A model generated the notes under the pieces. The model did not search any database, was not told the DNA's origin, and saw nothing but the letters and a program-made list of their open reading frames with translations. Of a stretch of DNA of 41,028 nucleotides, positions 3,025-26,036 are shown piece by piece. Both the position numbers and the translations under genes were made by a program. The stretch's first letter is position 1; each line of letters opens with the position of its first letter. Source of the DNA: a virus; the IMG/VR virus record IMGVR_UViG_3300032278_000029, positions 1-41,028 of that record; one strand, written 5' to 3'.

Positions 3025-3275
3025 CGGGTGCCCCTCCATTCCCGGTGAGCAGATTTCAGGGCACTTCGGCAGTTCGTAATACCTGCCCCCTCTGGCCCAT
3101 CCGACAACGGAGCGTGCTGCCAACGAGCGTGTTGCGCGTCTAGGTAAGTGAGCAGAACGTGGAGCCGCCAACTGCGTGTCGGCCACGATTCATCCCGCAC
3201 GACACAATGCGCAAATCGTCCGATGAGGTCACTGCGCGCGGATTGCTGTTGGAGCCAAATATAGAATGGTGACAA
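3021..3275 (-). CDS. YozE-like SAM-fold small protein
   Basis: 84-residue ORF starting at TTG (3275). The N-terminal FYIWLQQQSARSDLIGRFA, then DESWP and a helical YLDAQHA region, match the YozE/SAM-like family, short helical proteins of the form FYxWLxxQ...D..GdlA.D...D..FP. Its TGA overlaps the GTG of the primase-helicase gene, so the two are probably translationally coupled. The start is uncertain: no ATG exists in frame and an AGGAGG lies further upstream with no suitable start close to it. The role of YozE proteins is not established. Confidence 0.6.
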   Translation of the reverse strand: MSPFYIWLQQQSARSDLIGRFAHCVVRDESWPTRSWRLHVLLTYLDAQHARWQHAPLSDGPEGAGITNCRSALKSAHREWRGTR

Positions 3276-6441: not shown

Positions 6442-6567
6442 ATGACTTTCACAATTATCCTTGCATTGATCGTTGCGGCACCTTTGGCTATTATCGCTGG
6501 AGATTTCATCGCTGCTGGCGCATACCTCGTATTAAGTTGCGTGGTGCTCTTCTCTGAAAATGATTGA
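6442..6567 (+). CDS. Small membrane protein (41 aa)
   Basis: First gene behind the promoter at 6396. ATG 6442 lies 7 nt after GGAG; an ATG at 6436 is in frame but too close to the site. Apart from a short acidic C-terminus (SEND) it is almost entirely hydrophobic (TFTIILALIVAAPLAIIAGDF), consistent with one long or two short membrane helices. It overlaps the DNA polymerase start by 8 nt, suggesting translational coupling. Its function in a replication operon is unknown. Confidence 0.6.
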   Translation: MTFTIILALIVAAPLAIIAGDFIAAGAYLVLSCVVLFSEND

Positions 6568-8428
6568 TTTACTTGATACACTCCCCAGGAATCACAAGTG
6601 GGAACCAGTGAGCCCACCCTGCCTAGACGGGGTGAACTGCCTCGCCTTTGACTGCGAGACAGACGGGTTGAAATGGTGGGACGGGGATAGGCCCATTGGA
6701 TGCTCTATTACTCTCCCCGAGGGGCACAACCCCAAGGGTATCACCGCCATCTATCTCCCGTGGGGGCATCACGGTGGGGGGAACCTTGATGAAGCTACCG
6801 TCAAGCGATGGGCTCAGCGGGAGTTGCGAGGCAAACATCTTACTGGATTGAACATCCGATTTGACATCCATCACTTTCGAGAGTGGGGGGTGGACTTAGA
6901 GGCACAGGGGTGCACCTTTTCCGACGTGGGCCACTATGCCGCACTGCTCGATGATCACCGCAAACGGTTGAGCCTAGACAGTATTGTCCAAGATTATTTG
7001 GGGCTGGAGAAAGTAGGTAAGGAATTGGATGATACACGCATGGCCTCATACCATGCCGGAGAAGTTGCACCCCGGGCTGAAGCGGATGTCTGGCAAGTAC
7101 GGGATTTGCGCGCAAAAATGTGGCCATTGCTCGATGAGCAAGACTTGCAACGGGTGCGGCAACTAGAGGATGAGGTCATCCCGGTTGTGTGCGAGATGGA
7201 GCGCAACGGCACTCTGATTGACCAAGAATTATTGGAACAATGGATTCACGACACTGAGCAGGATTTTGAACGATGTCTGTGGACCATTTACCGGGAAACT
7301 GGATTGAACATTGATCCAGGGAAAACAGAAGCCAAGGAACGATTATTTGATCACCTTGGATTGCGGATTGAGCACACGGCAACCGGGGCATCTAGCTTCA
7401 CCGATGCTATCCTCAAAGCGGCGGGGCACCCCGTCGTGGAGCACCTCAGACGCGCACTCAAGCTCAAGAGTCTGCGCAGCAAGTATCTCCTCAAGTATAA
7501 GAGTGCCCTGGGCAACGACGGGGTGCTGAGGTATGCACTACATCAGCTGCGTGTAGAAAAAGACGATACAGGGCAAGCGGGCACCATCTCAGGGCGGTTC
7601 TCAAGCTCATCTATCACCCGGGGGGTGGGAGTTAACATCCAACAGGTGATGAAGGTGGCCAAACAAGCAGTTTCCTTCGGGGACCAATACCTCATCCGGC
7701 AGCTTCACGTCCCTGAATCGGGGTTGTGGCTTTCCGCAGACGCAATGCAGATTGAATACAGGATGTTTGCCAGCTACGCAGGCACCCCAGCGGTGCTCCA
7801 GGCATACGAGAAAGACCCGTTGCTGAGCTTCCACAAACTCATCTGGGAGATGATCAAACCGTTCAAACCGGATATCACCTACAGGCAGCAGAAAGATTTG
7901 AACTTTGCCAAAATATACGCAGCTGGAATTGTGAAATTGGCGCACATGCTGGAGTTTATCTCTGAATCTGAAGCGGATGAATTGCGGAGAATGAAGGCTA
8001 ACAGGGGGCACCCTAAATTGGCGCAAGCCGTGGAGGTGGAGCAAATCTATGCGCGTGAACTCCCCGAGGTTGCCACGCTGCTTCGGAATGCGAGCAACGC
8101 CGCAGCTGAACAAGGCTATATCCAAACAGTGCTTGGACGCCGCATGCGCTTTCCAAATGGACAGAGACTCCACAAAGCCTTGAACGGAATTATTCAAGGG
8201 GGAGCAGCAGACATCAATAAGCAAAAATTGATTGAACTCCACCGGGAACGAAAGCAAACCGGGTTCAAGATGCGGTTCACCGTCCATGACGAGGTAGACG
8301 GGGATGTGCCTGACCTGGAGGCAGCGCGAAAAGTGGGGCAGATTCTTGACAAGCAGTCGTTTCCAGAGATCAAAGTACCTATCCTTTGGGACATTTCGAC
8401 AGGTTGCAATTGGAGGGAATGCGGATGA
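6560..8428 (+). CDS. Family A DNA polymerase with 3'-5' exonuclease domain
   Basis: 622 aa, the main replicative polymerase. Exonuclease motifs: FDCETDG (D31, E33) and NIRFD (about 98-102). Polymerase motifs: TISGRFSSS (about 342-350), motif A DAMQIEYR (394-401), motif B KDLNFAKIY (445-453) and motif C VHDE (575-578). The TVLGRRMRF segment (523-531) is also conserved. All catalytic carboxylates are present, so it should be active. The 5'-nuclease domain of E. coli PolI is absent, as is usual in phages. It probably ends at NWRECG. A frame just past its stop looks coding (see nuclease entry). Having both this enzyme and a Prim-Pol helicase suggests a division between initiation/priming and elongation. 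Confidence 0.95.
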   Translation: MIDLLDTLPRNHKWEPVSPPCLDGVNCLAFDCETDGLKWWDGDRPIGCSITLPEGHNPKGITAIYLPWGHHGGGNLDEATVKRWAQRELRGKHLTGLNIRFDIHHFREWGVDLEAQGCTFSDVGHYAALLDDHRKRLSLDSIVQDYLGLEKVGKELDDTRMASYHAGEVAPRAEADVWQVRDLRAKMWPLLDEQDLQRVRQLEDEVIPVVCEMERNGTLIDQELLEQWIHDTEQDFERCLWTIYRETGLNIDPGKTEAKERLFDHLGLRIEHTATGASSFTDAILKAAGHPVVEHLRRALKLKSLRSKYLLKYKSALGNDGVLRYALHQLRVEKDDTGQAGTISGRFSSSSITRGVGVNIQQVMKVAKQAVSFGDQYLIRQLHVPESGLWLSADAMQIEYRMFASYAGTPAVLQAYEKDPLLSFHKLIWEMIKPFKPDITYRQQKDLNFAKIYAAGIVKLAHMLEFISESEADELRRMKANRGHPKLAQAVEVEQIYARELPEVATLLRNASNAAAEQGYIQTVLGRRMRFPNGQRLHKALNGIIQGGAADINKQKLIELHRERKQTGFKMRFTVHDEVDGDVPDLEAARKVGQILDKQSFPEIKVPILWDISTGCNWRECG

Positions 8429-8549
8429 TAGCCTTTCTGAAACGGAAGATGTTGCCAACTGGAATGTGGACTCTGGTGTTGCGTTGGAGGTGGTGGCGGG
8501 GATTATCAGCGGCAGACCGATACTTGGCGACAACGAGGATGGGAAATGG

Positions 8550-8954
8550 ATGGCTACGGAAGCATCTTTGAAACAGGCACTGACGAAAAAGATGCGGGAA
8601 GTCATGCCGGGGGCAGTAATCTTCCGACATGAGGACAAGCACATTTTTGGAGTGCCGGACATTTCGTGCACGTGGGGAGGGATGACGAGTTGGTGGGAAG
8701 TCAAATATGCAACCCCCTATATTCATGTCACTGAGGTGCAACTTCTCAATTGTAGAAAGCTCGACAACCGGGGGAGCAAGTGCGGGTTTATCGTCTTTCA
8801 AGGCAAGGGAGAGTTAGCGTGTCACGTAGTGGACCCAATAGACATGAAAGAGTGGGACAGAACTACCCCGGGGAGGTTCCATTGCACGGGGTTCAACTTT
8901 ACCGAATTAGCAAGATATATCAAAGGAGAACACCTCAATGTTATGGGCCGATAG
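8550..8954 (+). CDS. PD-(D/E)XK / VRR-NUC-like nuclease
   Basis: 134 aa from ATG 8550. GVPDIS (D37) and WWEVK (E50, K52) give the PD-(D/E)XK catalytic signature. A downstream TEVQLLNCRKL...CGFIV follows the Q...L...G pattern of VRR-NUC or Holliday-resolvase-like phage nucleases. It probably processes branched DNA during replication or packaging. The same frame is open upstream to 8304. Codons at 8427-8549 show strong G-first bias but contain no ATG, so the true start is uncertain. A 48-codon frame from 8425 with a good GGAGG overlaps the start. Confidence 0.75.
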   Translation: MATEASLKQALTKKMREVMPGAVIFRHEDKHIFGVPDISCTWGGMTSWWEVKYATPYIHVTEVQLLNCRKLDNRGSKCGFIVFQGKGELACHVVDPIDMKEWDRTTPGRFHCTGFNFTELARYIKGEHLNVMGR

Positions 8955-9099
8955 AAACACGCCAGTGGGGGGACACGTATTGCCCGAGGTCAAAGAACAA
9001 TTGAGGGAGGCATCCCGAGTTTTTAACAAATCAATGTCCCTCATTATCTCGGAAGCTATTGTGAACTGGCTGAAAAAGAATTCACCCCCCAAGGAGTAA
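8938..9099 (+). CDS. Ribbon-helix-helix-like small protein (53 aa)
   Basis: ATG with AAAGGAG 9-10 nt upstream, overlapping the nuclease 3' end by 17 nt. The beta strand and helices (PEVKEQLREASRVFNKSMSL, then IISEAIVNWLKK) match the RHH/CopG-Arc pattern, usually a dimeric DNA-binding regulator. It lies just ahead of the modification gene cluster and could control it or the replication operon. Family assignment is from pattern only. Confidence 0.6.
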   Translation: MLWADRNTPVGGHVLPEVKEQLREASRVFNKSMSLIISEAIVNWLKKNSPPKE

Positions 9100-9103
9100 T
9101 GAT

Positions 9104-9805
9104 ATGTGTGGTGTGATAGGGTATTCACCCTTGAAAGATCAATCGTGGGAAGTACGGAGAAGAGCGCAAGAGGCATTTGGCGCATTGTTCAAGGAAAGCA
9201 CTATCAGGGGCAAGCATTATTATGGGATTGCCCAACCGAATTCCACTGGACCTGACGGGTATAGTGGAGAATTCAAAGTGTGGAGAAGTCAATATGCCTC
9301 CACCATTCCTTCTACGTTCAACTCATTATTGCCCGCCATTGCGCATACCCGGTTTTGTCAATCCGGTGATTGGCAGATAAACGAGAACAATCAGCCTCTT
9401 CTCACTGCATCATCGGCGTTGGTAATGAACGGGGTCATTCATATGGGCACCAAAGAAGAATTTGAAGCCGCTTTTCAAGTGAAATGCAAGGTGGACAATG
9501 ACGGGGAAGTCTTCCTGCGGTGCGTAGAAAAAGGAGAAGACCCCGTCAAGTTTGTGAACGGCATCTCGGGGTCTTTTGCTGGAGTGTGGATGGAGAAAAG
9601 AGAAGATGTGTGCAAGATGTTTGCTGCGCGCAATACTCGCAGACCCCTCTGGCGTTGCCAAGAGTTTGGAGCAGTGTGGCTTGCGTCCACCCTCGACATT
9701 TTCTTACGTGCAGGATTTGAATCACCACTCACTCCCTTAGTCCCGGGGTTACTTTACCGAGACACCACCCACTTTTCTCTGATAGAAGGGGTGAAATCAG
9801 AATGA
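9104..9805 (+). CDS. Stand-alone class II glutamine amidotransferase
   Basis: 233 aa. The protein starts MCGVIGY, so after Met removal Cys2 is the N-terminal nucleophile of the Ntn-hydrolase GATase-II family (as in GlmS, PurF, AsnB). Other family landmarks are AHTRF (80-84), NNQPL (95-99), MNGVI (108-112) and DGEVFLR (about 133-139). It lacks a synthase domain, so ammonia must go to a partner. The next gene overlaps it by 4 nt (ATGA) and encodes a pyrophosphorylase-like base-modification protein. Nitrogen transfer to an activated thymine derivative is therefore the working idea (inference). Confidence 0.88.
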   Translation: MCGVIGYSPLKDQSWEVRRRAQEAFGALFKESTIRGKHYYGIAQPNSTGPDGYSGEFKVWRSQYASTIPSTFNSLLPAIAHTRFCQSGDWQINENNQPLLTASSALVMNGVIHMGTKEEFEAAFQVKCKVDNDGEVFLRCVEKGEDPVKFVNGISGSFAGVWMEKREDVCKMFAARNTRRPLWRCQEFGAVWLASTLDIFLRAGFESPLTPLVPGLLYRDTTHFSLIEGVKSE

Positions 9806-10803
9806 GTAGGCTCAAATCCTTTTTGAACTATTACGCTGAAAGCTCCAGGGCAGGGGATATTGACCCCGCGCATGGGATGCTTGAATACCTCTGTGAACGA
9901 TTTGAGCTCAATTTTGAGCAACGATACTGGCTGGCGTTTGTGTATGCGCTGACCTACTCGGGCCCATCAACATTCTACGTGTACAATGAATTTCCAGATT
10001 TTGAAAACTTGGACACGGGGAGACTCGGCAGGTGGTGGGTAGACCGGGGACGTCAAGAGATTATCTGCCAGACTGATAGACGATGGGTGCGGTCACTCAA
10101 TTTGTTCGTTCCTGCGGTGGAATCCTATCGAGAATGGATAGGTGAAGATACCCAAGAAGAACACTTTGCCGGCATGGTAGATGGAGTGTCGAATCCTGAA
10201 CAACGGTATAACGTCATCTATGCCGATGCCAAAAAGAAGCTCCACTCATTCGGGCAATTTGCCCTGTTTCTATATTTGGAAGCACTTCACACTATTACTC
10301 CCATGAATTTGGCTCCGACTACGCTGGACTTGAATGAGGCCACCTCGTGCCGCAATGGACTCTGCTATGCGTATGGTCTTGACCAATACTTAACAGAAGC
10401 CAATCAATCTACCCCAGAGGGGGCACACAAAGACATTTCGTGGGCGTGGTGGGATTTGCAGAAAAGACTAGCAGAGATGGACCCTGCCCCCACTATTTGG
10501 GCCACGGAAACCATGCTATGTGCTTACAAAAAGTTTCATCATGGGAAGAGATATATCGGTTATTATCTTGACAGACAAGCTATTGAAATCAAGAAGCTGG
10601 AGCACTCCTGCCCTCGGGGAGTAGCATGGGAAGTGCTGTGGCAATTCCGTGAAGAAACATACGACGACAAGCGAATGGCTGAAACTCGGGGGTGCGTCAC
10701 TCATCGGGGGGTATCATCCAAGTGGAAAAACGCAGCAGTGACCGGGACAGCTGATATTGCGGGAGGTGCTCCCGGCACGTTGGGTTTGTTATTAGGAGAA
10801 TGA
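9802..10803 (+). CDS. Alpha-glutamyl/putrescinyl-thymine pyrophosphorylase-like protein
   Basis: 333 aa, start overlapping the amidotransferase stop. The order of motifs resembles the aGPT-PPlase family described from hypermodified phages: RYWLAFVYALTYSGPSTF, then YNEFPDFENLDTGR, QTDRRWVR, FGQFALFLYLEAL, and SCRNGLCYAYGLD. Those enzymes replace the pyrophosphate on DNA-borne 5-hydroxymethyluracil with an amino-containing group. Which clade this belongs to cannot be told by eye. Its pairing with a glutamine amidotransferase is unusual. Assignment rests on remembered family motifs, not a search. Confidence 0.72.
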   Translation: MSRLKSFLNYYAESSRAGDIDPAHGMLEYLCERFELNFEQRYWLAFVYALTYSGPSTFYVYNEFPDFENLDTGRLGRWWVDRGRQEIICQTDRRWVRSLNLFVPAVESYREWIGEDTQEEHFAGMVDGVSNPEQRYNVIYADAKKKLHSFGQFALFLYLEALHTITPMNLAPTTLDLNEATSCRNGLCYAYGLDQYLTEANQSTPEGAHKDISWAWWDLQKRLAEMDPAPTIWATETMLCAYKKFHHGKRYIGYYLDRQAIEIKKLEHSCPRGVAWEVLWQFREETYDDKRMAETRGCVTHRGVSSKWKNAAVTGTADIAGGAPGTLGLLLGE

Positions 10804-10804
10804 G

Positions 10805-11038
10805 ATGCTAGTGGGGGATATTTCAACCAATATGTCCTTTGATCAACTCTGGAAAGCTGCTGAACCTTATATCATTGGGGTGTGGAAGTATCGCAAGCCG
10901 GGGGAACCCGTGCGGTGGAGTGCCACATATTTGGTAGATGGAGCCTATTGGGATGCGGGGTTGTCTGATACCGTAGAAGAGGCATTGATGAGAGTGATTC
11001 TCCAACGGTCACACCAAGTGCGTAAGGGGCTAAAATGA
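10805..11038 (+). CDS. Hypothetical protein (77 aa)
   Basis: ATG with AGGAG 6-7 nt upstream; overlaps the following gene by 4 nt. Sequence is aromatic-rich (WKAAEPYIIGVWKYRKPGEP, YLVDGAYWDAG) and ends in a basic helix. It resembles small beta-rich phage proteins, but I recognise no family. Its location inside the modification operon suggests a helper role. Confidence 0.6.
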   Translation: MLVGDISTNMSFDQLWKAAEPYIIGVWKYRKPGEPVRWSATYLVDGAYWDAGLSDTVEEALMRVILQRSHQVRKGLK

Positions 11039-11628
11039 CGCTGCCGTTGGAGGGTGACAGACTACCTCACATGTGTACCTATACGGGCAAATTTTTAGAC
11101 TTGCTGAACTTCAAGACCTCAGATGTGATGCTGGAGGATATTGCGCACGGATTGGCGTGTGTGAATCGGTTTGGGGGCCAAGCCAGAATACCCATCAGCG
11201 TGGCACAGCACTCGGTGTACGTCAGCCGGTTATGCGACACCACCGGGGGTGCGCTTCAAGCCTTACTCCACGATGCGTCTGAAGCATATTTGGGTGACGT
11301 AATCTTTATGCTCAAACGGTCCCCTGAGATGGGGGAATTTAGAAAGATTGAGGAGCACATCCAATCCACTATTTATCAAGCCTTTGGGTGTCCTGTAGAA
11401 GAACCACTGGAACTCATAGAAGCAGACAAGCTGATGGTAGAATTTGAAGCCAAGCACGGGTTCAAGTCTGGATGTTTTCAATTCGACATGCCCGGGTATG
11501 CTTTTCCTGACGCCAGACAAGAACACCGAGTGGGGGAGTGGCACGCGTGGAATTGGCAATATGCGAAACAAGCATTCAAGGCCCGGTTTGCGCTTCTAAC
11601 GTGTTCAGTACCAACGACAAAAATGTGA
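11035..11628 (+). CDS. HD-domain nucleotide phosphohydrolase (YfbR-like)
   Basis: 197 aa. Motifs SVAQHS (H59), LLHDASEAYLGD (H79, D80, E83) and a later helix with EADKL (about D130) form an HD metal site like that of YfbR 5'-deoxynucleotidase and related phage phosphohydrolases. The opening YTGKFLDLLN...EDIAHGLA is typical. In phages with unusual bases, HD enzymes such as DatZ or dTTPases remove the competing normal nucleotide. Here depletion of dTMP or dTTP would favour 5-hmdU incorporation (inference). ATG 11035 is preceded by AAGGGG. Confidence 0.82.
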   Translation: MTLPLEGDRLPHMCTYTGKFLDLLNFKTSDVMLEDIAHGLACVNRFGGQARIPISVAQHSVYVSRLCDTTGGALQALLHDASEAYLGDVIFMLKRSPEMGEFRKIEEHIQSTIYQAFGCPVEEPLELIEADKLMVEFEAKHGFKSGCFQFDMPGYAFPDARQEHRVGEWHAWNWQYAKQAFKARFALLTCSVPTTKM

Positions 11629-11673
11629 GGATGTCTACCCTGGAGGTCGTTGACAAAGTTGCGTACGCGCAAA

Positions 11674-11691
11674 CCTCGTGATGCAGAAGTA
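11674..11691 (+). repeat. 18-mer shared with the flank of dispersed-repeat copy C
   Basis: CCTCGTGATGCAGAAGTA is identical to the reverse complement of 27779-27796, which joins the 28-bp repeat to the tail-hub gene start. Here it lies in the ~100-bp gap between the HD and zinc-ribbon genes, next to TTGCG-TACG-CGCAA (about 11659-11672). Confidence 0.7.
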
Positions 11692-11730
11692 TGGAATACA
11701 CCAAGCAAACGACTCCGAAGGGGGATGAAC

Positions 11731-11856
11731 ATGGCAATTTGCAAACGATGCGAAAAAGAAGAAGCGCAGCTGAGGCACAGAATGGGGTGGTGTCGGGCTT
11801 GCGAAGAGTGGCGGGTGAAAATGATCAACCGATTCAAACCCCCCCGTGAGGCGTGA
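11731..11856 (+). CDS. Mini zinc-ribbon protein (41 aa)
   Basis: ATG 11731 lies 6 nt after AAGGGGG (ATG 11725 is adjacent to it and less likely). Two CxxC knuckles (CKRC and CRAC) about 17 residues apart form a likely zinc ribbon, followed by a basic tail. It overlaps the GTG preceding the P-loop kinase gene. A longer frame from TTG 11650 is open but the upstream portion overlaps a repeat and is less plausible. Confidence 0.6.
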   Translation: MAICKRCEKEEAQLRHRMGWCRACEEWRVKMINRFKPPREA

Positions 11857-11858
11857 AA

Positions 11859-12422
11859 ATGATTGTAAATCTCAGAGGGACATCAGGCAGTGGTAAAAGC
11901 ACCATAGTGCGCGAGGTGATGGGGGTATTTCAACAAAAAGTGCCACGGTATTGTGAGGGGAGAAAGCAGCCAACAGGGTATGAATTATTTGATACAGTTT
12001 ATTCAAAGTTGTTTGTCCCAGGGCACTATGAATCGCCCTGTGGAGGATGCGACACGTTGAGCTTTTCAGGTTCTCAAGACCGGATTTGGGAGTGGATACG
12101 AGAGCACCACGCCCGAGGATACAACGTGTTGTTTGAGGGGGTGATCATCGGGGACGATAACAAGCGCACCATCCAGGCGCACCGGGATAAACTCCCGTTG
12201 CTTTTGATTGAGTTGACTACGAATTTGAACAATTGCCTCGCAGGGATACAAGCACGCAGGGATGCCCGTGGAGATACCCGACCGATCAACCCCAGCAATA
12301 CTACTAAGCGCATGCCTGGTATTTCCAAGCGCATGGATAAGTTTGAACGGATGGGGATGGACGTGAGGCGATTGACCCGGGGGGATGCTCTTGAACTTTG
12401 TAGGAGAATGCTATGCCCCTGA
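11859..12422 (+). CDS. P-loop nucleotide/DNA-base kinase
   Basis: 187 aa from ATG 11859 (GAGG 7 nt upstream; a GTG at 11853 is in frame). The Walker A motif GTSGSGKS is at residues 7-14; later landmarks are FEGVIIGDD and a basic GIQARRDARGD lid-like segment. It overlaps the next gene, a 5-hmdU DNA kinase helical-domain protein, by 10 nt. In related phages a kinase and that helical domain act together to phosphorylate 5-hydroxymethyl-dU in DNA. I infer the same role, with the two parts encoded separately. An alternative is a free dNMP kinase. Confidence 0.78.
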   Translation: MIVNLRGTSGSGKSTIVREVMGVFQQKVPRYCEGRKQPTGYELFDTVYSKLFVPGHYESPCGGCDTLSFSGSQDRIWEWIREHHARGYNVLFEGVIIGDDNKRTIQAHRDKLPLLLIELTTNLNNCLAGIQARRDARGDTRPINPSNTTKRMPGISKRMDKFERMGMDVRRLTRGDALELCRRMLCP

Positions 12423-13303
12423 CTCAATTAGACAACACCAACTTGTTTTGGTACTGGGTCAACGAACGGCACATGATCTATCTTCGGAGCAAGGTGTCAC
12501 AACTCCCGAAGCCGTGGACCAAAGACCCTATCCTTCAAGAGTACAAATTCACCAATGTTTTCCGTCAACTTGATACAGGCACACTATGGCTTTCGGAGCA
12601 CTTCTTGGAACCTCACCGGGGTGCCCCGTTGGATTTGCTCGCCTTCAACATTTGCTGGTACAGGATGTTCAACTGGACGGGGACGGGGGGAGCTTTGGGG
12701 TGGTGCAAAGATTGGCCGGTGAAACGCATCATTTCCACCCTTTCAGCCCTCAAAAATGAGGGGTATCAGATATTCACAGGTGCACATATTATTCATAGTG
12801 AACCAGGAGAACCAAAGATTGACTCCATTACCAAAGTGTGCCGCCATATTTTCAGGGCACGCAAGGATATTGTAGAGGTGGCCCGGGACACCCGCAGCCT
12901 GGAAGCCACCTACACGGAGTTGAAAAAGCATCGTCACGTGGGCAGTTTCCTCGCCTATGAGATGGTGAGTGACATGCGGTGGACCCGGCTATTGGAAGAT
13001 GCGCACGACATCAATACGTGGGCCAACCCCGGTCCAGGGGCAATGCGAGGGTTGAGCCGATTACAAATGCCGGCCACGGAGAAAACTGGGGTGGACTCAA
13101 TGCGCACGTTACTCGCTCAACAGCATTTGTTGCGGTCTGAACAAGAGACTTCTGGTTGGCCTGGACGTTACAAGGCTGATTGGACTCCGGTCTTGGAGAT
13201 GCGAGACATCGAACACTCGTTGTGCGAGTTTGACAAATACTCCCGGGTCAAATTTGGCGAGGGCAAACCCAGGGGACGATACCCGGGCAGAGGTGAAACA
13301 TGA
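12413..13303 (+). CDS. Putative DNA base hypermodification protein (5-hmdU DNA kinase helical domain)
   Basis: 296 aa. Strong family landmarks: FWYWVNERHMIYLR, PWTKDPILQEYKFTNVFRQLD, FLAYEMVSDMRWTRLL, TWANPGPGAMRGLSRL and MRDIEHSLCEFDKYSR, ending in a basic GEGKPRGRYPGRG. This is the signature of proteins annotated as putative DNA base hypermodification / HMUDK helical domain. The helical fold is thought to engage modified bases in DNA. The gene is between the P-loop kinase and the thymidylate-synthase homologue, overlapping both, which points to stoichiometric co-expression. Confidence 0.85.
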   Translation: MPLTQLDNTNLFWYWVNERHMIYLRSKVSQLPKPWTKDPILQEYKFTNVFRQLDTGTLWLSEHFLEPHRGAPLDLLAFNICWYRMFNWTGTGGALGWCKDWPVKRIISTLSALKNEGYQIFTGAHIIHSEPGEPKIDSITKVCRHIFRARKDIVEVARDTRSLEATYTELKKHRHVGSFLAYEMVSDMRWTRLLEDAHDINTWANPGPGAMRGLSRLQMPATEKTGVDSMRTLLAQQHLLRSEQETSGWPGRYKADWTPVLEMRDIEHSLCEFDKYSRVKFGEGKPRGRYPGRGET

Positions 13304-14358
13304 TAGTTATCAATACGGAATCCGCACACCAAGCTCTCCCGATGGGTATCCACCTGCTCAACCGGGACGGCATACCCGTCATCACTCGGAATGGGCCTGT
13401 AATGGCAGCCCCATGCCCAGTGACAACCGTTTACAACAATCCACTCGACAAGTGTGTGATGTGGCCTGAACGGGACGTCAACATTGCGTTTTTGATCTAT
13501 GAGTCTTTGTGGATGCTCGGGGGAAGAAACGACGTGGAACCCCTCCAGCGGTATGTACATGATTTTGACCGATACAGTGACGACAAGAAAACGCTCCACG
13601 GGGCATATGGGTATCGGTGGCGGCATTGGTTCAAGATAGACCAACTTGAACTCATTATCGAGCAACTACAGAAAGACCCCACAGACAGGCGCAATGTACT
13701 CCAAATGTGGGACGCCTCACAAGATTTGGGTCACCAGGGGTTGGATGTCCCTTGCAACGACATCGCCACCTTTCAAATAGACTCCAAGGGTAAGCTCAAC
13801 ATGGTTGTCTTCTGCCGGAGTAATGATATCATCTGGGGGACGTATTTTGCGAATGCGTTTCACTTCGGTATATTGTTGGAATATATGGCTACCAAGATTG
13901 GTTGCCAGATGGGTACTTATTCGCAAGTGAGCGTGAATTACCATGCCTACTTGACCACCCTTCAGCCGCTACTTCACCTCGGAGAGATGTGCCCCTTTGA
14001 CGAGCAGGAATACACCCTCAAGGTGGAGACTCAACTGAAAGAAGAGTACAGCGAAAGTCTCCGAGGCAGGCAATTGAGAATGGATTATGTGCTTCTGGAT
14101 GAGCATATTGATGAGATACTTCTTCAAGCAAGTACCGGGTTTGCCCTTCCCCGGTTGTTTACCAACGATAACCCGTGGGTGGAGGCCATCTATGCGGTGC
14201 TCAAAGCGCACCACGTATGGCGCACCTTTCCTCCATCTACTAAATATGAGCACGCCTTCAACATTCTCTCAACTGCAGACGGGGGAGTTGACTGGATTAT
14301 TCTCATGAAACGATGGTTGAGGAAGAGGCAACACCTGTATCTTGCTGCCTCAAACTGA
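13300..14358 (+). CDS. Thymidylate-synthase-family protein, likely dUMP hydroxymethylase
   Basis: 352 aa. TS landmarks are YGYRWRHW (103-110), DPTDRRNVLQMWD (126-138), the catalytic cysteine in DVPCND (C152), and CRSNDIIWGTYFANAFHF (172-189). Canonical TS has PCH and G-x-PFN; here His is Asn and the nucleotide-binding loop is WGTYFANA, a variant seen in phage relatives. TS-family enzymes that make 5-hydroxymethyl-dUMP use the same fold. The neighbourhood of hmdU-processing genes favours that activity, but plain dTMP synthesis cannot be excluded from sequence. Start overlaps the previous stop (ATGA). Confidence 0.85.
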   Translation: MIVINTESAHQALPMGIHLLNRDGIPVITRNGPVMAAPCPVTTVYNNPLDKCVMWPERDVNIAFLIYESLWMLGGRNDVEPLQRYVHDFDRYSDDKKTLHGAYGYRWRHWFKIDQLELIIEQLQKDPTDRRNVLQMWDASQDLGHQGLDVPCNDIATFQIDSKGKLNMVVFCRSNDIIWGTYFANAFHFGILLEYMATKIGCQMGTYSQVSVNYHAYLTTLQPLLHLGEMCPFDEQEYTLKVETQLKEEYSESLRGRQLRMDYVLLDEHIDEILLQASTGFALPRLFTNDNPWVEAIYAVLKAHHVWRTFPPSTKYEHAFNILSTADGGVDWIILMKRWLRKRQHLYLAASN

Positions 14359-14368
14359 GAAGGAGCGA

Positions 14369-14707
14369 ATGATGCCCGAAGATGACAAGTGCTTAAAGAA
14401 TTTGAAGGCAATTTTTGAAAAAGACAATCTTGCGCTTCATCAAAAAGACCGTGCCTACAGGGGCAGCTGGAAGAAACGAGGTGGAGTGGGGGCATTCATG
14501 ATGCTCTGTCGGAAATGGGATCGAATTGAAGCCCGTGTGCAGGAGTTCAATTGGGACATTTTTGAGTCTATCAAGGAAGACATCCGAGATGAGTCCATCT
14601 TGGATGACATTCGGGATTTGCGACGGTATTTGGGGCTGGTAGAGGCTGAAATGGTTGAACAGCAAAATGACAACGTAGGGGTGAGTATCACATACACTGC
14701 CCCCTGA
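14369..14707 (+). CDS. DUF1599/Nmad1-like protein
   Basis: 112 aa from the ATG at 14369 behind AAGGAG. KDRAYRGSWKKRGGVGAFMMLCRKWDRIE, then DESILDDIRDLRRYLGLVEAEM, follows the helical pattern of DUF1599, also called nucleotide modification associated domain 1 (K..dYG..W...g....R...Ki.R......D...D...Y). Many such proteins are all-alpha NTP-pyrophosphohydrolase relatives. Its position right after the TS homologue supports a nucleotide-pool or base-modification role. Family call is moderate. Confidence 0.6.
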   Translation: MMPEDDKCLKNLKAIFEKDNLALHQKDRAYRGSWKKRGGVGAFMMLCRKWDRIEARVQEFNWDIFESIKEDIRDESILDDIRDLRRYLGLVEAEMVEQQNDNVGVSITYTAP

Positions 14708-14739
14708 TTCAGTCTATTTGACCCCGGTGGGAGTAAGCG

Positions 14740-14991
14740 ATGAAAGGGACCATCACCAGGCTCCGCTTGAATCAAGGTTACTGCTTCATCCGAGATGAGG
14801 AGGGCATCTCACGATTTGCCCATGCACGGGCATTTGTAGATCCTGTCTCATTTGACTTGGCGCGTGAGGGACAAGCTGTTGAATTCACACCAGTGATAGA
14901 CCCCAAGGGGCTTAGGGCGCAACACGTGCGTTTGCTCCCAGCAGGGTATGCCGTACCACGAATCAGCAAGGATACTGACGGGAATGTCTAA
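14740..14991 (+). CDS. Cold-shock-domain-like nucleic-acid-binding protein
   Basis: 83 aa with GGAG before the ATG. GTITRLRLNQGYCFIRDEEG, then SRFAHARAF, and EGQAVEFTPVIDPKGLRAQHV follow the cold-shock OB-fold pattern (G.V...GYGFI..., FvH.s, G..V.F...KG..A..V). It probably binds single-stranded DNA or RNA. The C-terminal 15 residues overlap the start of the next gene by 8 nt. Confidence 0.75.
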   Translation: MKGTITRLRLNQGYCFIRDEEGISRFAHARAFVDPVSFDLAREGQAVEFTPVIDPKGLRAQHVRLLPAGYAVPRISKDTDGNV

Positions 14992-15286
14992 TAAAGAATT
15001 CAGAAATCTCACAACTGAAATTGTGGAATGGGAAGATGCTACAGGGTGCTCGGGGTGGGCATCAGATAGCACTGGGGAACCCGTTGGAACCCTGATGATA
15101 ATACGGTCAGTGGGGTATCTGCTGAAAGAAACAAAGAGCACCCTCACCCTGTGTCAGAGTCTAGACCAAGACGAACAAACGGACAACCGATTGAGCATCC
15201 CCAAATCCATCATCACTAGACGATGGGTGATCAGGCCAGACGGGTCTGGTTGGTCAAAATCGACCGGAGAGTCAAGGAATGATTGA
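14984..15286 (+). CDS. Hypothetical protein (100 aa)
   Basis: ATG 14984 after a weak ACGGGA site; the frame extends upstream to 14948 but inside the previous gene. A VEWEDATGCSGW opening followed by SVGYLLKETKSTLTLCQSL and IPKSIITRRWVI is a pattern I associate with small beta-rich phage proteins of unknown function. It overlaps the SNF2 gene by 8 nt. Confidence 0.6.
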   Translation: MSNKEFRNLTTEIVEWEDATGCSGWASDSTGEPVGTLMIIRSVGYLLKETKSTLTLCQSLDQDEQTDNRLSIPKSIITRRWVIRPDGSGWSKSTGESRND

Positions 15287-16847
15287 CTTTGCAAAATGTA
15301 ACACGAAACCGTATGACCACCAGAAAGCGGGAGTTGAGGCGCTGGTGGGCAACGAGGTCTTTGCGTTGTTTGATGAACCCGGGGCAGGCAAGTCCAAACA
15401 GGTGATTGACGCAGCAATGCTTTTGTGGGGAGAAGGAGCCATTGACCGGGTTATCGTAGTGTGCCCTAGCCCAGTCAAGCCAGTTTGGTTTGACCCTGAG
15501 TTGGGGCAACTCTCAAGGCATCTCTGGCCAACAGTACCGTGCTTGATCTCTGAGTATCATTCCAAGCTCAAGCAGTGGACTTCTGGACCCGAAGGGGTTG
15601 AGCCTTTGCGTTGGGTCATTACCAACTATGAGTACTTGCGAGATGCTGCCAGACTTAAAATGCTGACGGGTAAAGTGGGCCCAAAAACCCTTTTGGTACT
15701 GGATGAATCGAGTGCGATCAAAACGCCGAGAGCACAGCAGACGCGAGCATGTAAGAAACTCAGGAAGAAGTGTGGCCGGGTAGTGTTATTGAACGGCACT
15801 CCGATTGATCACAGTCCCCTTGATATGTATTCTCAGGGAAACATTATGAGCCCTGACATTCTTGAAACCCCCAACCTGCAATTATTCCGCGCACGGTATT
15901 GCGTGATGGGTGGGTGGCAAGGTCGGGAGATTGTAGGGTGGAACAATCTGGACGATATCACCGCCCGGTTTGCCCCTTACGTCTTGAGACGATTGAAACG
16001 GGATTGCCTTGATCTCCCAGAGAAAATGGAACCCGTCACTATTACTGCGACATTGACCCCGGCTACGTGGAAAGTGTATTGCGAAATGCGGGATGACCTT
16101 ATCACGTGGCTCAACGAGTCTACCGCGAGTGTTGCCCCGCAGACGATTACCAAGGTGATGCGGTTGGCTCAAATTACGTCAGGATTCATCGGGGGGATTG
16201 AAGACCAAGGGTTGGATGACGGACTCCCCGAGTATCTCAGCACGACACACAAATTGCCGGAAGAAATCTTGTTTCAAGGTTCGTGGACTTCGGAGTCAAA
16301 AATGATGCGCACAGTCCAAGAGATTAGTGATGAAAAGCTCACGACGTTTCTTCAATGGCATCGAGAGCAATTGTTCATGAATCCTAATTTCAAGGTGGTG
16401 GTCTGGTGCCGTTTTCGTAATGAGGTGGAACGGCTTAGATTGGCTCTCACTCAGTTGCCTCACCCAAATGTAAAGGTGGGCACCATTTGGAGTGGACCGA
16501 AGGATGAGCGGGAGTACGCGGTGAGATTGATGAATCCATATACCGCACCGAAGGGTCCAGCGGTGCTTGTAGGCACCCCGGCAACCGGGGCATTTGGACT
16601 CGATTTCACCGCAGCAGACACCGCCGTATATATGAGCAACGAACGGAGATTGCTGATCAGGATTCAATCTGAAGACCGAATACACCGACCGGGACAGACT
16701 CGTGCGGTGAACTATTTTGACGTCATCGCGCAAGGTCCAAGGGGGCAAAAGACTATAGACCACCACATCATCAAGATGCTTTGGGCGCATCGTGACCTTG
16801 CTGAGATGACTACTTCGGGGTGGATTGAAGCCCTGTCGGAAGAGTGA
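15279..16847 (+). CDS. SNF2-family DNA helicase/translocase
   Basis: 522 aa. Motif Q-like PYDHQKAGVEAL is followed by P-loop DEPGAGKSKQ (32-41), the Walker B variant LVLDESS, LLNGTPI (motif III) and, in the second RecA lobe, VVVWCRFRNEVERL, TGAFGLDFTAAD and SEDRIHRPGQTRAV (motif VI). These are standard SNF2/SWI2 signatures. Phage SNF2 proteins remodel DNA-protein complexes or assist replication and recombination. The start overlaps the previous gene, and it is the last gene before a 317-bp gap. Confidence 0.93.
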   Translation: MIDFAKCNTKPYDHQKAGVEALVGNEVFALFDEPGAGKSKQVIDAAMLLWGEGAIDRVIVVCPSPVKPVWFDPELGQLSRHLWPTVPCLISEYHSKLKQWTSGPEGVEPLRWVITNYEYLRDAARLKMLTGKVGPKTLLVLDESSAIKTPRAQQTRACKKLRKKCGRVVLLNGTPIDHSPLDMYSQGNIMSPDILETPNLQLFRARYCVMGGWQGREIVGWNNLDDITARFAPYVLRRLKRDCLDLPEKMEPVTITATLTPATWKVYCEMRDDLITWLNESTASVAPQTITKVMRLAQITSGFIGGIEDQGLDDGLPEYLSTTHKLPEEILFQGSWTSESKMMRTVQEISDEKLTTFLQWHREQLFMNPNFKVVVWCRFRNEVERLRLALTQLPHPNVKVGTIWSGPKDEREYAVRLMNPYTAPKGPAVLVGTPATGAFGLDFTAADTAVYMSNERRLLIRIQSEDRIHRPGQTRAVNYFDVIAQGPRGQKTIDHHIIKMLWAHRDLAEMTTSGWIEALSEE

Positions 16848-17164
16848 AAAACGAACGAAAAACGAAATGTGTCTAGAAAGTGTTAGGAATGCGTCTAAGA
16901 GGTGTACAACATTTTGATGATAGCTACAGTGGTGTCATGGTCAATCGTTGATTTGCTTCTAAAGTATTATGAACATGTAGTTTATAACTTTTTTATTTTA
17001 GAGCTTTACTTTTGAGAAAATATAAAATTTGGCCTGTTTTTGGGGGTGTAGATGCCTCGCACTTCTAAAATAAGCTATTTACTTTTTTATAAAAACAGAT
17101 TACAGTTATCCCTTACAACGAGTGCCGCAACGATACGGCACCTCAAAAAAGGAGAAGCCCGAAG
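16848..17164 (+). promoter_or_regulatory. AT-rich intergenic regulatory region
   Basis: No supported gene. Contents: a 16-mer GGTCAATCGTTGATTT (16939-16954) also present in reverse at 32926-32941; the 13-mer GCTTTACTTTTGA (17003-17015), also at 5482; a TATAAA (17021-17026) with TTTAGA 18 bp upstream, a possible promoter; a second TTTACTTTTTTATAAAA element (about 17082-17098); and a hairpin GTGCCG/CGGCAC (17122-17141) in the leader of the helicase gene. A 62-codon frame starting at 17052 overlaps the helicase gene and looks spurious. Confidence 0.5.
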
Positions 17165-18637
17165 ATGGCTGATACTCACACCTGGTCAGAACAGCAAGAA
17201 AAGATTTTTGAGTGGTTCAAGACCGGCGTCAGGCACTTGATCGTCCGTGCTCGTGCCGGCACCGGAAAGACCACCACGATCATCGAGGGGATAAAGCACG
17301 CCCCTGAGACCAGCATCCTGCTGGCCGCATTCAATAAACGTATTGCCACTGAGTTGGACCTGCGATTGGAGAACACCAACGCAGAAGCCAAGACGCTTCA
17401 CGCCATTGGCTTTTCCTTCGTGAAACGCTATTGGGAGAGGCTGTCATTGGAGAAGCGCAACGGGGCACGCAAAATGGGGCTAGCCGAGCAGGTGTGCGGC
17501 GCACGTGTCCCCGATAGCATCATCAAACTCGTGGCCAATCTCCACTCCAAGGCCCGTGAAATCGTCCCCCATGCTTGCCACCCCGGGGATTTGACCGACA
17601 TCATGTACAAATTTGACTTACTCCCCGATGAAGAGTGGGTGGGTGAGGGGTATGATGTGGAGTTTGTTGAGAGCAAGGCGTTGGAAGCGATGGAGGTAGC
17701 AGCCACCGTCAAACCCGTCACGACAGGGATTGATTTCAGTGACATGATCTTCTTGCCCGTCCGTAATAAGTGGCTGAGCAAGAAGTACGATTTGGTAGTG
17801 GTCGATGAGGCGCAGGATATGACTGCGGCGCAGCTGGAGATTGCCCAGGGAGTTTGCCGTGGACGCATTTGCGTAGTGGGAGATGATAAGCAAGCCATCT
17901 ATGGTTTCCGAGGGGCAGACAGCGGGTCTTTGGACCGTCTCAAGACAGAACTGGATGGGGTTGAGTTGGGACTGAACACCACTTACCGCTGCAGCACGGC
18001 CATCGTAGAAGAAGCAAAGCGATTGGTGCCCGATTTTGAAGCTGGCCCTACAAACAAAACCGGGATGATCACTCAGATCCCCCGGGAAAAGATTGTTGAC
18101 GCTGCGGACATGAGTGATTTCATCCTCTCCCGGTTAAATGCTCCGTTGGTAGGCATTGCCCTCTCGTTGCTGGCGAGAGGCAAACGCACCGTCATCGCTG
18201 GCAGGGACATTGGCGCTGGTCTCAAAAAGCTCATACGCACACTCGCAAAGGGTCAGGCAGCACAGTCTATACCCCGGTTGCTGGAGCGCATCTCAATCTG
18301 GGAAGTGAAGCAATGCGACCGGATGATCAGAGCGCAACGACCGGAGCAGACTGACCTCATCCAAGACCAAGCGGAATGCCTCGTCAGTCTGTGCCAAGAA
18401 GCCCGAAGCGTCAACGCAGTCATGCAACGAATTGATGTCCTGTTCACCAATAATGGACTCGGCCAAGCAGGGACTATTACGTGCTCATCGGTTCACAAGG
18501 CAAAAGGGTTAGAAGCTGACCGGGTATTCATCTTGAAAGATACCCTGAAAGATTCTAGCGAAGAAGAGTTGAACATTCAGTATGTCGCAATCACGCGAGC
18601 AAAGACCACTTTGGTGTGGGTCACGGAAGGAGAATGA
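17165..18637 (+). CDS. UvrD/Rep-like superfamily 1 helicase
   Basis: 490 aa. Motifs in order: Walker A ARAGTGKTT (29-37), motif Ia LAAFNKRIA, Walker B VVDEAQDM, VGDDKQAIYGFRGAD (motif III), LNTTYR (motif IV), SSVHKAKGLEADRVFIL (motif V) and YVAITRAKTTL (motif VI). All catalytic motifs are intact and the protein is shorter than UvrD, as is typical for phage versions. ATG 17165 follows GGAG. Predicted 3'-5' DNA unwinding in replication or recombination. Confidence 0.93.
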   Translation: MADTHTWSEQQEKIFEWFKTGVRHLIVRARAGTGKTTTIIEGIKHAPETSILLAAFNKRIATELDLRLENTNAEAKTLHAIGFSFVKRYWERLSLEKRNGARKMGLAEQVCGARVPDSIIKLVANLHSKAREIVPHACHPGDLTDIMYKFDLLPDEEWVGEGYDVEFVESKALEAMEVAATVKPVTTGIDFSDMIFLPVRNKWLSKKYDLVVVDEAQDMTAAQLEIAQGVCRGRICVVGDDKQAIYGFRGADSGSLDRLKTELDGVELGLNTTYRCSTAIVEEAKRLVPDFEAGPTNKTGMITQIPREKIVDAADMSDFILSRLNAPLVGIALSLLARGKRTVIAGRDIGAGLKKLIRTLAKGQAAQSIPRLLERISIWEVKQCDRMIRAQRPEQTDLIQDQAECLVSLCQEARSVNAVMQRIDVLFTNNGLGQAGTITCSSVHKAKGLEADRVFILKDTLKDSSEEELNIQYVAITRAKTTLVWVTEGE

Positions 18638-18641
18638 AAGA

Positions 18642-19133
18642 ATGGGAAAATGGACGGCATTGATGGAGGGCAGACCACTTTACCGGGGAGTTGAGCCCAG
18701 ATATCAAGACAAGGTTGAAGCCGTAAAAGCACCGCTGAAGACAGCTCAATTGTCCCCGGCTGCAATTGCGTCTGAGGTGGTAGGGTTGAGGGCAAAAAAG
18801 GCTAGCAAGGAATCTGAGTTGTCTGAAATCAATCTCTTGCTGGAAGCCCATCACCAACTCCTCATTGACGTCTATGACGAAGCCGGGGTGGAGAACCTCA
18901 AGCTGTCATCAGGCCACTCGGTGCGCACGCAGGTAGAACCAAATGCGGTAGTCAAGGACAAGGAAGTGTATCGCAAATGGTGCCTTAATAACGGATTTGG
19001 AGAGTTGATGTCTCTGCCGTGGCAGACAACAAACAGCCTGACCAAAGAACGATTGGAGGAGGGGAACCCAGAACCTGATGGGATTGAAATCTTTTCACGC
19101 ACAAAGGTGATTCTGACTTCCCCCAGAAGATGA
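18642..19133 (+). CDS. Hypothetical coiled-coil protein (163 aa)
   Basis: ATG 18642 begins four bases after the helicase stop. Residues about 40-90 (VGLRAKKASKESELSEINLLLEA and on) are a likely coiled coil, followed by an alpha/beta-type C-terminal half containing RTKVIL. This layout (heptad region, then a small domain around a SVRTQVEP-like strand) is common in phage proteins encoded near recombination or ssDNA-binding genes. Function not assigned. Confidence 0.65.
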   Translation: MGKWTALMEGRPLYRGVEPRYQDKVEAVKAPLKTAQLSPAAIASEVVGLRAKKASKESELSEINLLLEAHHQLLIDVYDEAGVENLKLSSGHSVRTQVEPNAVVKDKEVYRKWCLNNGFGELMSLPWQTTNSLTKERLEEGNPEPDGIEIFSRTKVILTSPRR

Positions 19134-19237
19134 AATGCCCACATTGTACAAACGACAACCCGAGTATGTTGGAGAGGATTTCAGCCAGCACAGTATTCTG
19201 CTTGGTATGTTCCAAGCAATTTCAGGAGAAAGACTGA
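19130..19237 (+). CDS. Mini zinc-ribbon protein (35 aa)
   Basis: Begins as ATGA over the preceding stop and ends one base before the next ATG. CPHC (C3, C6) and CLVC (C24, C27) form a rubredoxin/zinc-ribbon-like pair. Coupled translation on both sides and the four-cysteine spacing support it despite the small size. Confidence 0.65.
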   Translation: MKCPHCTNDNPSMLERISASTVFCLVCSKQFQEKD

Positions 19238-19238
19238 C

Positions 19239-20009
19239 ATGAAGAGAAAGAAAGTGGTCAAAACCGCAAAGAAACGGGTGGTCAAGCCCACCACGCTCGC
19301 AACTACTACCTCAGCAGATCTCATAGCCCCCTCGTTTGTAGATGTCTCGGACACCCGAGGGACCGAGCATTTGACGAGGGATGATATGCAAATGCCCCGG
19401 CTTACGCTGTCACAAAAGATGTCAAATCAGCTAGACCCCCAACACTCTTCATTTCTCCCTGACTTGAGGGTGGGGGAGTTTTTCAATGACCTTACGGGGG
19501 ACATTTATGGGCCTGATCCTCTGCGATTTGCCGTGATGCGGTCAGATCCCCCTCGTGGAGTTGAATTTTCCCCGCTGGACGAGGGTGGTGGCGTAAAGGA
19601 TATGAACGTGCCACTGGATGACCCTCGTATGGTCTGGGGGGATAACGGGGAAGTGCCCGTGGCCACTCGATTCTATGACTACATTATCTTGTTGTTAGAT
19701 TGTAATGAAGAAGTGATTGCCTTGTCGTTGGCTCGCACCGGAGTCAAAGCAGCTAAGAGTCTCAACACGTTGATAAAAGTACGCAGGGGACCATCTTTTG
19801 CCGGAGCTTATACTGCTACCCCTGCGACAGAAAGCAATAACAAGGGAACTTATGGGGTGTGGAAATTCAAAAATGATGGGTGGGTTAGCAAAGAACAATA
19901 TGAGCGGTTTACCGAGTTGTATGAGAATTTGAAAGACCGCACAATTAACATTGAAAGAGATCCTCAACCGACCAACCCTGAAGAGAAAGGGTCAACACTG
20001 GAGATATAG
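19239..20009 (+). CDS. Hypothetical replication-associated protein, possibly ssDNA-binding
   Basis: 256 aa with a basic N-terminus (KRKKVVKTAKKRVVK). The core MPRLTLSQKMSNQLDPQHSS, LRVGEFFNDLTGDIYG, then an aromatic/charged C-terminus, matches a widespread phage protein family found beside replication genes. An SSB-like role is often suspected. The acidic segment after residue 110 and the Glu/Pro-rich tail fit that idea, but I cannot confirm an OB fold. It is the last gene before the hairpin at 20016. Confidence 0.6.
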   Translation: MKRKKVVKTAKKRVVKPTTLATTTSADLIAPSFVDVSDTRGTEHLTRDDMQMPRLTLSQKMSNQLDPQHSSFLPDLRVGEFFNDLTGDIYGPDPLRFAVMRSDPPRGVEFSPLDEGGGVKDMNVPLDDPRMVWGDNGEVPVATRFYDYIILLLDCNEEVIALSLARTGVKAAKSLNTLIKVRRGPSFAGAYTATPATESNNKGTYGVWKFKNDGWVSKEQYERFTELYENLKDRTINIERDPQPTNPEEKGSTLEI

Positions 20010-20984: not shown

Positions 20985-21242
20985 TCAGGCTGGCCGTCTG
21001 CGTTGGTACTCACTCCAGCCGCCAACCACCAGCCACGTTACGAGGTCATGCCCACCCTCATCTGACCACGCTATCCCATAGTCAGTTGAGGTGAGATATG
21101 TTGCGCCAAAAACAAATGCCCCAATGACGACCAATCGGAGAAGCATTCCAAGCATCCCCCAAATGGGGTGGCCGGGGTCAGCCAGGATTTGCCCCACACT
21201 ACCGGGACGTAATACGGTGGAGAAAGTCTCGTGTCCCGTCAT
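20985..21242 (-). CDS. Membrane protein, holin candidate (85 aa)
   Basis: Chosen start ATG 21242 (an in-frame start at 21272 lies inside the upstream gene). A strong transmembrane helix (MLGMLLRLVVIGAFVFGATYL) is followed by a hydrophilic region and a second weaker hydrophobic stretch (LVTWLVVGGW). It lies in a row of lysis-type genes and overlaps the 3' end of the lipoprotein hydrolase gene by 44 nt. Confidence 0.55.
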   Translation of the reverse strand: MTGHETFSTVLRPGSVGQILADPGHPIWGMLGMLLRLVVIGAFVFGATYLTSTDYGIAWSDEGGHDLVTWLVVGGWSEYQRRRPA

Positions 21243-22605: not shown

Positions 22606-22892
22606 CGTACCCTCCCATTGGTTTTCCGCAATTCGGTCACTTCCACCCGTAATTCTTTGGTGGCCTCCAGTATAGTGTTGGCCGTTTCGGTATTTGTGAC
22701 GATTGCGGCGGTGTTATCTTTCACAATTTGAATCATTAGTTTTTCGTGACCCTCATATCGTTCGGCCATCTCTTTCCACTCAGTCTTGTGCCGAAGTGAA
22801 TCTTTCCTCGCGTAGAAAAAGATCACCAATGCCAAGACAGCAGCGAGTGACGTACTGCCATCTTTCAAAAGGTCAAGAATGGCCGAATCCAT
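22602..22892 (-). CDS. Holin-like protein with coiled coil (96 aa)
   Basis: One N-terminal transmembrane segment (SLAAVLALVIFFYA) followed by a basic turn and a long coiled-coil-like helix (VTNTETANTILEATKELRVEVTELRK). This resembles BhlA/XhlA-type phage holin-associated proteins. ATG 22892; its stop overlaps the lipoprotein start. Confidence 0.6.
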   Translation of the reverse strand: MDSAILDLLKDGSTSLAAVLALVIFFYARKDSLRHKTEWKEMAERYEGHEKLMIQIVKDNTAAIVTNTETANTILEATKELRVEVTELRKTNGRVR

Positions 22893-22894
22893 GA

Positions 22895-23248: not shown

Positions 23249-23258
23249 TCTCCCCCCT

Positions 23259-24233: not shown

Positions 24234-24240
24234 TATCCAC

Positions 24241-26028: not shown

Positions 26029-26036
26029 CGTTCCTC

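Follow-up and report, generated by a model that had tools for sequence, protein, structure and literature searches.

A candidate glutamine-dependent route to an amine-bearing thymine in uncultured viruses

The IMG/VR virus record IMGVR_UViG_3300032278_000029 is a metagenomic contig of 41,028 bases, taken here in full (hereafter, the window). Between positions 9104 and 14707, the first two of a series of tightly packed genes encode a stand-alone class II glutamine amidotransferase (GATase) and a protein of the amino acid:DNA transferase family (AADT; ADDT in Pfam). We favour, with moderate confidence, the reading that this locus encodes a 5-hydroxymethyldeoxyuridine (5-hmdU) hypermodification pathway of the PaMx11/YuA type that is headed by a glutamine-fed GATase II and an AADT and yields 5-aminomethyldeoxyuridine (5-aminomethyl-dU); in all likelihood, some of the thymine of this phage is converted to a base that bears an amine. 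Evenly balanced, in our judgement, is the broader proposition that GATase and AADT form a two-protein, glutamine-dependent DNA thymine aminase, in which channelled ammonia displaces the phosphate of 5-phosphomethyl-dU in DNA to give 5-aminomethyl-dU in one step; on this view, a large number of uncultured viruses would derive acetylated, amide-linked and possibly radical-SAM-modified thymines from the same starting point. An earlier note, made from the letters of this DNA alone, had already connected GATase-derived ammonia with 5-aminomethyl-dU on the argument that the cassette lacks an amino acid:DNA transferase. Its conclusion is the best-supported reading and gains strength from the comparative data described below, but the argument is faulty because the ADDT match of 9802-10803 identifies such a transferase.

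The amidotransferase and its DNA transferase partner

Judged by its sequence, the 233-residue product of 9104-9805 is a class II glutamine amidotransferase, and the Pfam check (GATase_7, E 6e-10, above the cut-off) bears out the earlier description of a stand-alone GATase II. The protein contains the complete catalytic set of this class, namely Cys2 (directly after the initiator Met), Arg83, Asn109-Gly110 and Asp133. In class II enzymes, the Cys is the nucleophile, the Arg and Asp bind glutamine, and the Asn-Gly pair forms the oxyanion hole. These residues are retained in 57-58 of the 58 relatives, the sole deviation being one truncated alignment row. In a profile search of the PDB, the best match was PurF (1ao0, E 3e-11), followed by GlmS and asparagine synthetase (AsnB), and the structural model (predicted local distance difference test score, pLDDT, 88) resembles the glutaminase domains of GlmS and PurF.

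The product of 9802-10803 had been described as aGPT-pyrophosphorylase-like. This assignment was rejected: aGPT-Pplase3 scores below its own Pfam cut-off, and PF18724 (ADDT) scores better (53.2 bits against a cut-off of 26.2, E 4e-14). A Foldseek comparison of the AlphaFold2 model (pLDDT 92) with the PDB returned a single significant match, 8z2n_B (E 6e-4, probability 1.00, template modelling scores 0.52/0.58), which is the PaMx11 glycinyltransferase gp46/PUGT, with the substrate given in the entry title as 5-phosphomethyl-2'-deoxyuridine (5-PmdU). The fold alignment yields only 14% identity with gp46, and an ET-x-x-C core is common to the window AADT, gp46 and the ViI-type enzymes. A phmmer search of the PDB produced chance matches only; the profile and fold searches are the informative ones. 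By profile and modelled fold, 9802-10803 is a member of the amino acid:DNA transferase family. In the contigs of two relatives, L048 and L051, the HMUDK_hel profile (helical domain of 5-hmdU DNA kinases) weakly matches G021:C1:13179-13526 and G022:C1:14752-15081. These matches fall on the AADT gene itself and were rejected as a separate gene; they suggest that the kinase helical domain and the AADT belong to one superfamily.

We analysed the neighbourhoods of related AADTs in viral contigs. The sequence scan returned 58 viral loci, and the 80 best of the 592 candidates from the alignment-based scan were retained; counts below refer, unless another denominator is given, to 92 IMG/VR loci distinct by AADT sequence, and proximity means a GATase within 4 kb of the AADT. 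The GATase itself, used as a query against viral contigs, gave no match, and no stretch of its alignment is conserved enough for a scan, so that the pairing emerged from the AADT query. A GATase is in proximity of the AADT in 91 of the 92 loci, the exception being L063, where the AADT is cut by the contig end, and lies beside it in all 43 loci whose contigs extend 2.5 kb or more in either direction. The two genes are on the same strand in 127/127 loci and, with five exceptions among these, are immediate neighbours or have just a small gene for a GNAT acetyltransferase between them. By contrast, among AADT loci of the ViI or MO526 type, all 21 distinct ones lack a GATase, and the GATase profile matched none of the eight comparator genomes of cultured phages and all 20 clade records. 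Given that the GATase family is present in 13 of 50,697 cultured phage records, as against 91 of 92 relatives beside an AADT, the pairing exceeds chance. Beyond the window, no fewer than 91 viral sequences contain the pair, which was detected in no cultured phage searched.

The two genes also co-diverge more closely than either does with the kinase or the Tet/JBP dioxygenase described below: the correlation between pairwise distances for GATase and AADT is 0.88 across 88 loci, compared with 0.76 and 0.71, respectively, for the kinase and 0.57 and 0.60 for Tet/JBP. The only clade ORF (open reading frame) that matches two cassette profiles is L051:2075-3100, in which a partial N-terminal GNAT is joined in frame to the AADT, unless this is an assembly artefact.

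Among the nearest GATases of cultured phages, three of the four examined lie beside amidoligases, and in the fourth, JB8, the neighbours are annotated as hypothetical proteins. In the cultured-phage loci L001, L003 and L004, a class II GATase is found beside genes for an amidoligase, an ATP-grasp protein or a gamma-glutamyl cyclotransferase; these GATases apparently belong to a different GATase-linked pathway.

The operon and its variants among relatives

The window has no close cultured relative: megablast of positions 6560-17000 yielded no match among the 50,697 phage records. The earlier description of a tightly packed gene run holds, with nine plus-strand ORFs in succession, of which neighbours overlap by 4-17 bases or lie 1-22 bases apart. 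The GATase gene is the first in this operon and overlaps the AADT gene by 4 bases. All ORFs of the cassette are intact and their motifs are conserved. The features are as follows.

9104..9805, plus strand: class II glutamine amidotransferase, stand-alone
9802..10803, plus strand: amino acid:DNA transferase family protein (AADT/ADDT)
10805..11038, plus strand: 77-residue ORF inside the operon, no family match
11035..11628, plus strand: HD-domain deoxynucleoside 5'-monophosphate phosphatase homologue (phrog_318, dNMP phosphatase, E 3e-41; Pfam YfbR-like at just E 0.004)
11650..11856, plus strand: 68-residue Cys-rich ORF, no confident family
11853..12422, plus strand: P-loop kinase, probable 5-hmdU DNA kinase of the PaMx11 gp49 type (weak Pfam matches)
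12413..13303, plus strand: HMUDK_hel, 5-hmdU DNA kinase helical-domain protein of the PaMx11 gp50 type (PF18723, E 2e-51)
13300..14358, plus strand: thymidylate synthase (TS) family, probable dUMP hydroxymethyltransferase of the PaMx11 gp51 type (family match E 4e-28)
14342..14707, plus strand: 121-residue ORF with a TTG start, no family (homologue in L006, E 7e-20)
6560..8428, plus strand: DNA polymerase I-type polymerase, upstream context (phmmer E 5e-44 to PaMx11 gp55)

The TS homologue, HD phosphohydrolase, P-loop kinase and HMUDK helical protein named in the earlier note were all recovered. The TS-family protein is 40% identical over 99% of its length to the deoxyuridylate hydroxymethyltransferase of Bordetella phage MW2 and matches PaMx11 gp51 with a phmmer E of 4e-74. 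The kinase is 36% identical to PaMx11 gp49 (phmmer E 5e-38) and 41% identical to its counterpart in phage Simon, and the HMUDK_hel protein matches gp50 (phmmer E 1e-50). Thus, by homology, the window appears to encode both a source of 5-hmdU (the TS-family enzyme) and a 5-hmdU DNA kinase, both of which are expected of a 5-hmdU hypermodification pathway. The HD protein probably trims the dTMP pool, as its family suggests. The DUF1599/Nmad1-like protein suggested for 14342-14707 was abandoned: there is no PF07659 match even at E 10, and the best Pfam match, at E 0.15, is unrelated.

A typical relative encodes a Tet/JBP dioxygenase, a ParB-like protein, the GATase, often a GNAT, the AADT and the P-loop kinase, followed by terminase genes. 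In most relatives, Tet/JBP takes the place of TS, and the family assignment suggests that these viruses make 5-hmdU in DNA by means of the dioxygenase; the window and its nearest relative, L006, use the TS-family enzyme with HMUDK_hel. Both versions are built around the same constant core, the GATase and the AADT. The kinase profile is retained in 88 of 92 relatives. Since these include the Tet/JBP loci, which do not require a pool of modified nucleotides, the most likely substrate of the kinase is 5-hmdU in DNA. Considering that only AADT, GATase and kinase are near-universal and that TS is swapped for Tet/JBP, the AADT is the likeliest user of the ammonia.

The remaining variation concerns enzymes that could modify the product. 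Of the 92 GATase loci, 46 carry a GNAT gene. The GNAT profile matches PaMx11 gp48, a match that, in so large a superfamily, indicates likeness of fold or subfamily rather than a shared substrate. An amidoligase is found in 6 of 92 relatives, never together with a GNAT; the amidoligase-like gene lies in the cassettes of L006 (L006:9324-10277), L069, L027, L032, L046 and L062, and also in phage Simon (L165, 7582-8535). Both nearest relatives of the window AADT (53% identity) carry this gene, and the window has neither a GNAT nor an amidoligase. PaMx11, Simon, Sonora and MO526 encode a flavin lyase of the DAO family, which is absent from the window and from 20/20 GATase-bearing records. GNAT or amidoligase genes therefore follow the GATase module as well as the module of glycine transfer and flavin lyase (in PaMx11 and Simon), a pattern that fits the view that the two modules yield the same primary amine.

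Radical SAM proteins of a single family are encoded together with GATase, AADT and kinase in L032/L033, L039, L045, L046, L058, L088 and L136 and, on Bacteroidota contigs from metagenome-assembled genomes, in L161-L163, usually where neither Tet/JBP nor TS was found. These loci suggest a further branch of tailoring or a different origin of the hydroxymethyl group.

The cassette is flanked by genes for a Prim-Pol/VapE-like primase-helicase (1075-3186, minus strand), a SNF2-type helicase (15279-16847, plus strand) and a UvrD-type helicase (17165-18637, plus strand). Further downstream, 18582-20009 (plus strand) encodes homologues of phage Pam3 gp33 and gp34 (DUF7307 and Pam3_Gp34), and 21199-27773 (minus strand) contains four large, probably structural ORFs of 468, 324, 595 and 578 residues, three of which have no PHROG match at E 0.001.

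Proposed pathway and alternative explanations

By homology, the TS-family enzyme would make 5-hydroxymethyl-dUMP, the HD phosphatase would limit dTMP, and 5-hmdU would enter DNA, where the P-loop kinase with HMUDK_hel would phosphorylate the 5-hydroxymethyl group. In the next, proposed step, the GATase would hydrolyse glutamine and pass ammonia to the AADT, which, as an ammonia-using 5-PmdU transferase, would accept it instead of an amino acid and displace phosphate or pyrophosphate, giving 5-aminomethyl-dU. This step would resemble the reaction of PurF, in which glutamine-derived ammonia displaces pyrophosphate from phosphoribosyl pyrophosphate (PRPP). The GATase-AADT pair would thus replace two steps of the PaMx11 pathway, glycine transfer followed by flavin-dependent cleavage, by which 5-aminomethyluracil reportedly arises from glycine. 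In relatives, GNAT or amidoligase enzymes may then acylate the new amine; in the window, which has neither, the product is probably the free amine.

Several observations weigh against this scheme. The AADT family takes its name from amino-acid donors, no GATase-AADT gene fusion was found among the clade ORFs, and a GNAT is missing from half of the relatives as well as from the window. The relatives were chosen by likeness to the window AADT and share ancestry, so that counts such as 91 of 92 are not independent trials, and most of the contigs, the window included, are probably partial genomes. Furthermore, the GATase fold also resembles the gamma-glutamyl hydrolase EgtC (E about 1e-6, template modelling score 0.6), which means that ammonia transfer is not the only possible role of this domain.

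In the main rival reading, the GATase is an EgtC/Dug3-like gamma-glutamyl hydrolase that acts after conjugation: the AADT would attach glutamine via its side-chain nitrogen, or a gamma-glutamyl amine, to the activated methylene, and the GATase would remove glutamate, the product still being 5-aminomethyl-dU. We consider this unlikely. Such a role would suit a GATase that stands alone without a synthetase domain and matches EgtC structures, amino acids are known substrates of AADTs, and the known pathway trims after conjugation (PaMx11 gp46, then gp47); however, a PDB search with the GATase profile finds PurF, GlmS and AsnB but no EgtC at E 0.01, and the side-chain amide nitrogen of glutamine is, by established chemistry, a poor nucleophile. 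Decidedly unlikely, in our view, is an AADT that adds an ordinary amino acid in the manner of M6, ViI or PaMx11, with GATase-derived ammonia amidating the carboxylate or altering the side chain to give an amide-bearing thymine. Amidation calls for ATP-dependent activation, whereas the cassettes of the window and most relatives contain no ligase or synthetase; the only universal partner of the GATase is the AADT, and a GNAT beside the pair calls for a free amine. In favour of amidation are the family membership of the AADT, the amidoligases near the pair in the six relatives, and the CmoY-type ligases with a glutamine-hydrolysing domain, for which amidation of a carboxymethyl base is predicted in other phages (PMC12783734).

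The amidoligase neighbours of homologous GATases in cultured phages, where no AADT adjoins, would also be compatible with a GATase that serves a phage peptide or metabolite pathway together with an amidoligase and merely shares an operon with the AADT. The near-invariant pairing with the AADT across differing cassettes, the tight co-divergence and the rarity of nearby amidoligases make this extremely improbable. That the cassette is decayed or inactive, with virion DNA containing plain T or 5-hmdU, is very improbable: the window does lack a downstream acylating enzyme, but its genes are intact and their motifs conserved.

If the proposed GATase-AADT route to 5-aminomethyl-dU is correct, it would be a shorter, glutamine-driven path to an amine-bearing thymine and would extend the chemistry of PurF to DNA, in a broad range of uncultured viruses but in no cultured phage that was searched. 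It would also change the prediction of donors from AADT genes, since an AADT need not imply an amino-acid adduct, and would provide a two-gene tool to place a reactive primary amine on DNA.

Comparison with known systems

As a base, 5-aminomethyl-dU is already known from phages, and 5-aminomethyluracil is cited as a natural phage base (PMC11550810); what is new is the proposed route. A role of glutamine amidotransferases in DNA modification has precedents in Gat-QueC of the deazaguanine pathway (PMC6884629) and, as a prediction, in carboxymethylcytosine modification (PMC12783734). The literature searched, which did not include the most relevant papers on AADT chemistry, contained no GATase-AADT pair for thymine.

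Among the systems nearest to this one is that of PaMx11, for which protein names were taken from PDB entries 8z2m/8z2n and 8z2o/8z79. The kinase, HMUDK_hel and TS of the window are homologous to gp49, gp50 and gp51, in the same order, both systems include an AADT-family transferase, and relatives of the window share a gp48-like GNAT. In PaMx11, however, the glycinyltransferase gp46, flavin lyase gp47 and acetyltransferase gp48 directly precede gp49, whereas the window has GATase and AADT, no flavin lyase, no GNAT and an AADT that is only distantly related; its HD gene shows no phmmer-detectable homology to gp52. Microbacterium phage MO526 (Tet_JBP, ADDT, DAO/flavin lyase, Ploopntkinase3) follows the same cassette plan as the Tet/JBP relatives, with the flavin lyase at the place where they carry GATase II.

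ViI and CBA120 (Ackermannviridae) share with the window an AADT family member, a 5-hmdU kinase and the TS-family logic, and their thymidine hypermodification reportedly uses an amino-acid donor. They differ in that no GATase occurs at any examined locus and the AADT is followed by a conserved gene that we take to encode a pyridoxal phosphate (PLP) enzyme, although Pfam gave no match. A profile of this presumed PLP gene of CBA120 had no match in the clade loci or the window, no general search for PLP enzymes having been made.

Outside 5-hmdU chemistry, PurF shares the class II GATase domain and the displacement of pyrophosphate by ammonia, but its acceptor is a fused phosphoribosyltransferase acting on PRPP rather than a separate, DNA-acting AADT. 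The Gat-QueC/DpdA system for 2'-deoxyarchaeosine in phage 9g likewise feeds nitrogen into a DNA base from a glutamine amidotransferase domain (PMC6884629), although the target is a 7-deazaguanine and the GATase is fused to QueC. Finally, among the CmoX/CmoY ligases that form amides of 5-carboxymethylcytosine, a single CmoY cluster includes a glutamine-hydrolysing domain, from which a DNA base is predicted to receive ammonia (PMC12783734); here, in contrast to the window, the base is cytosine and amide formation is ATP-dependent, by an asparagine-synthetase-like ligase.

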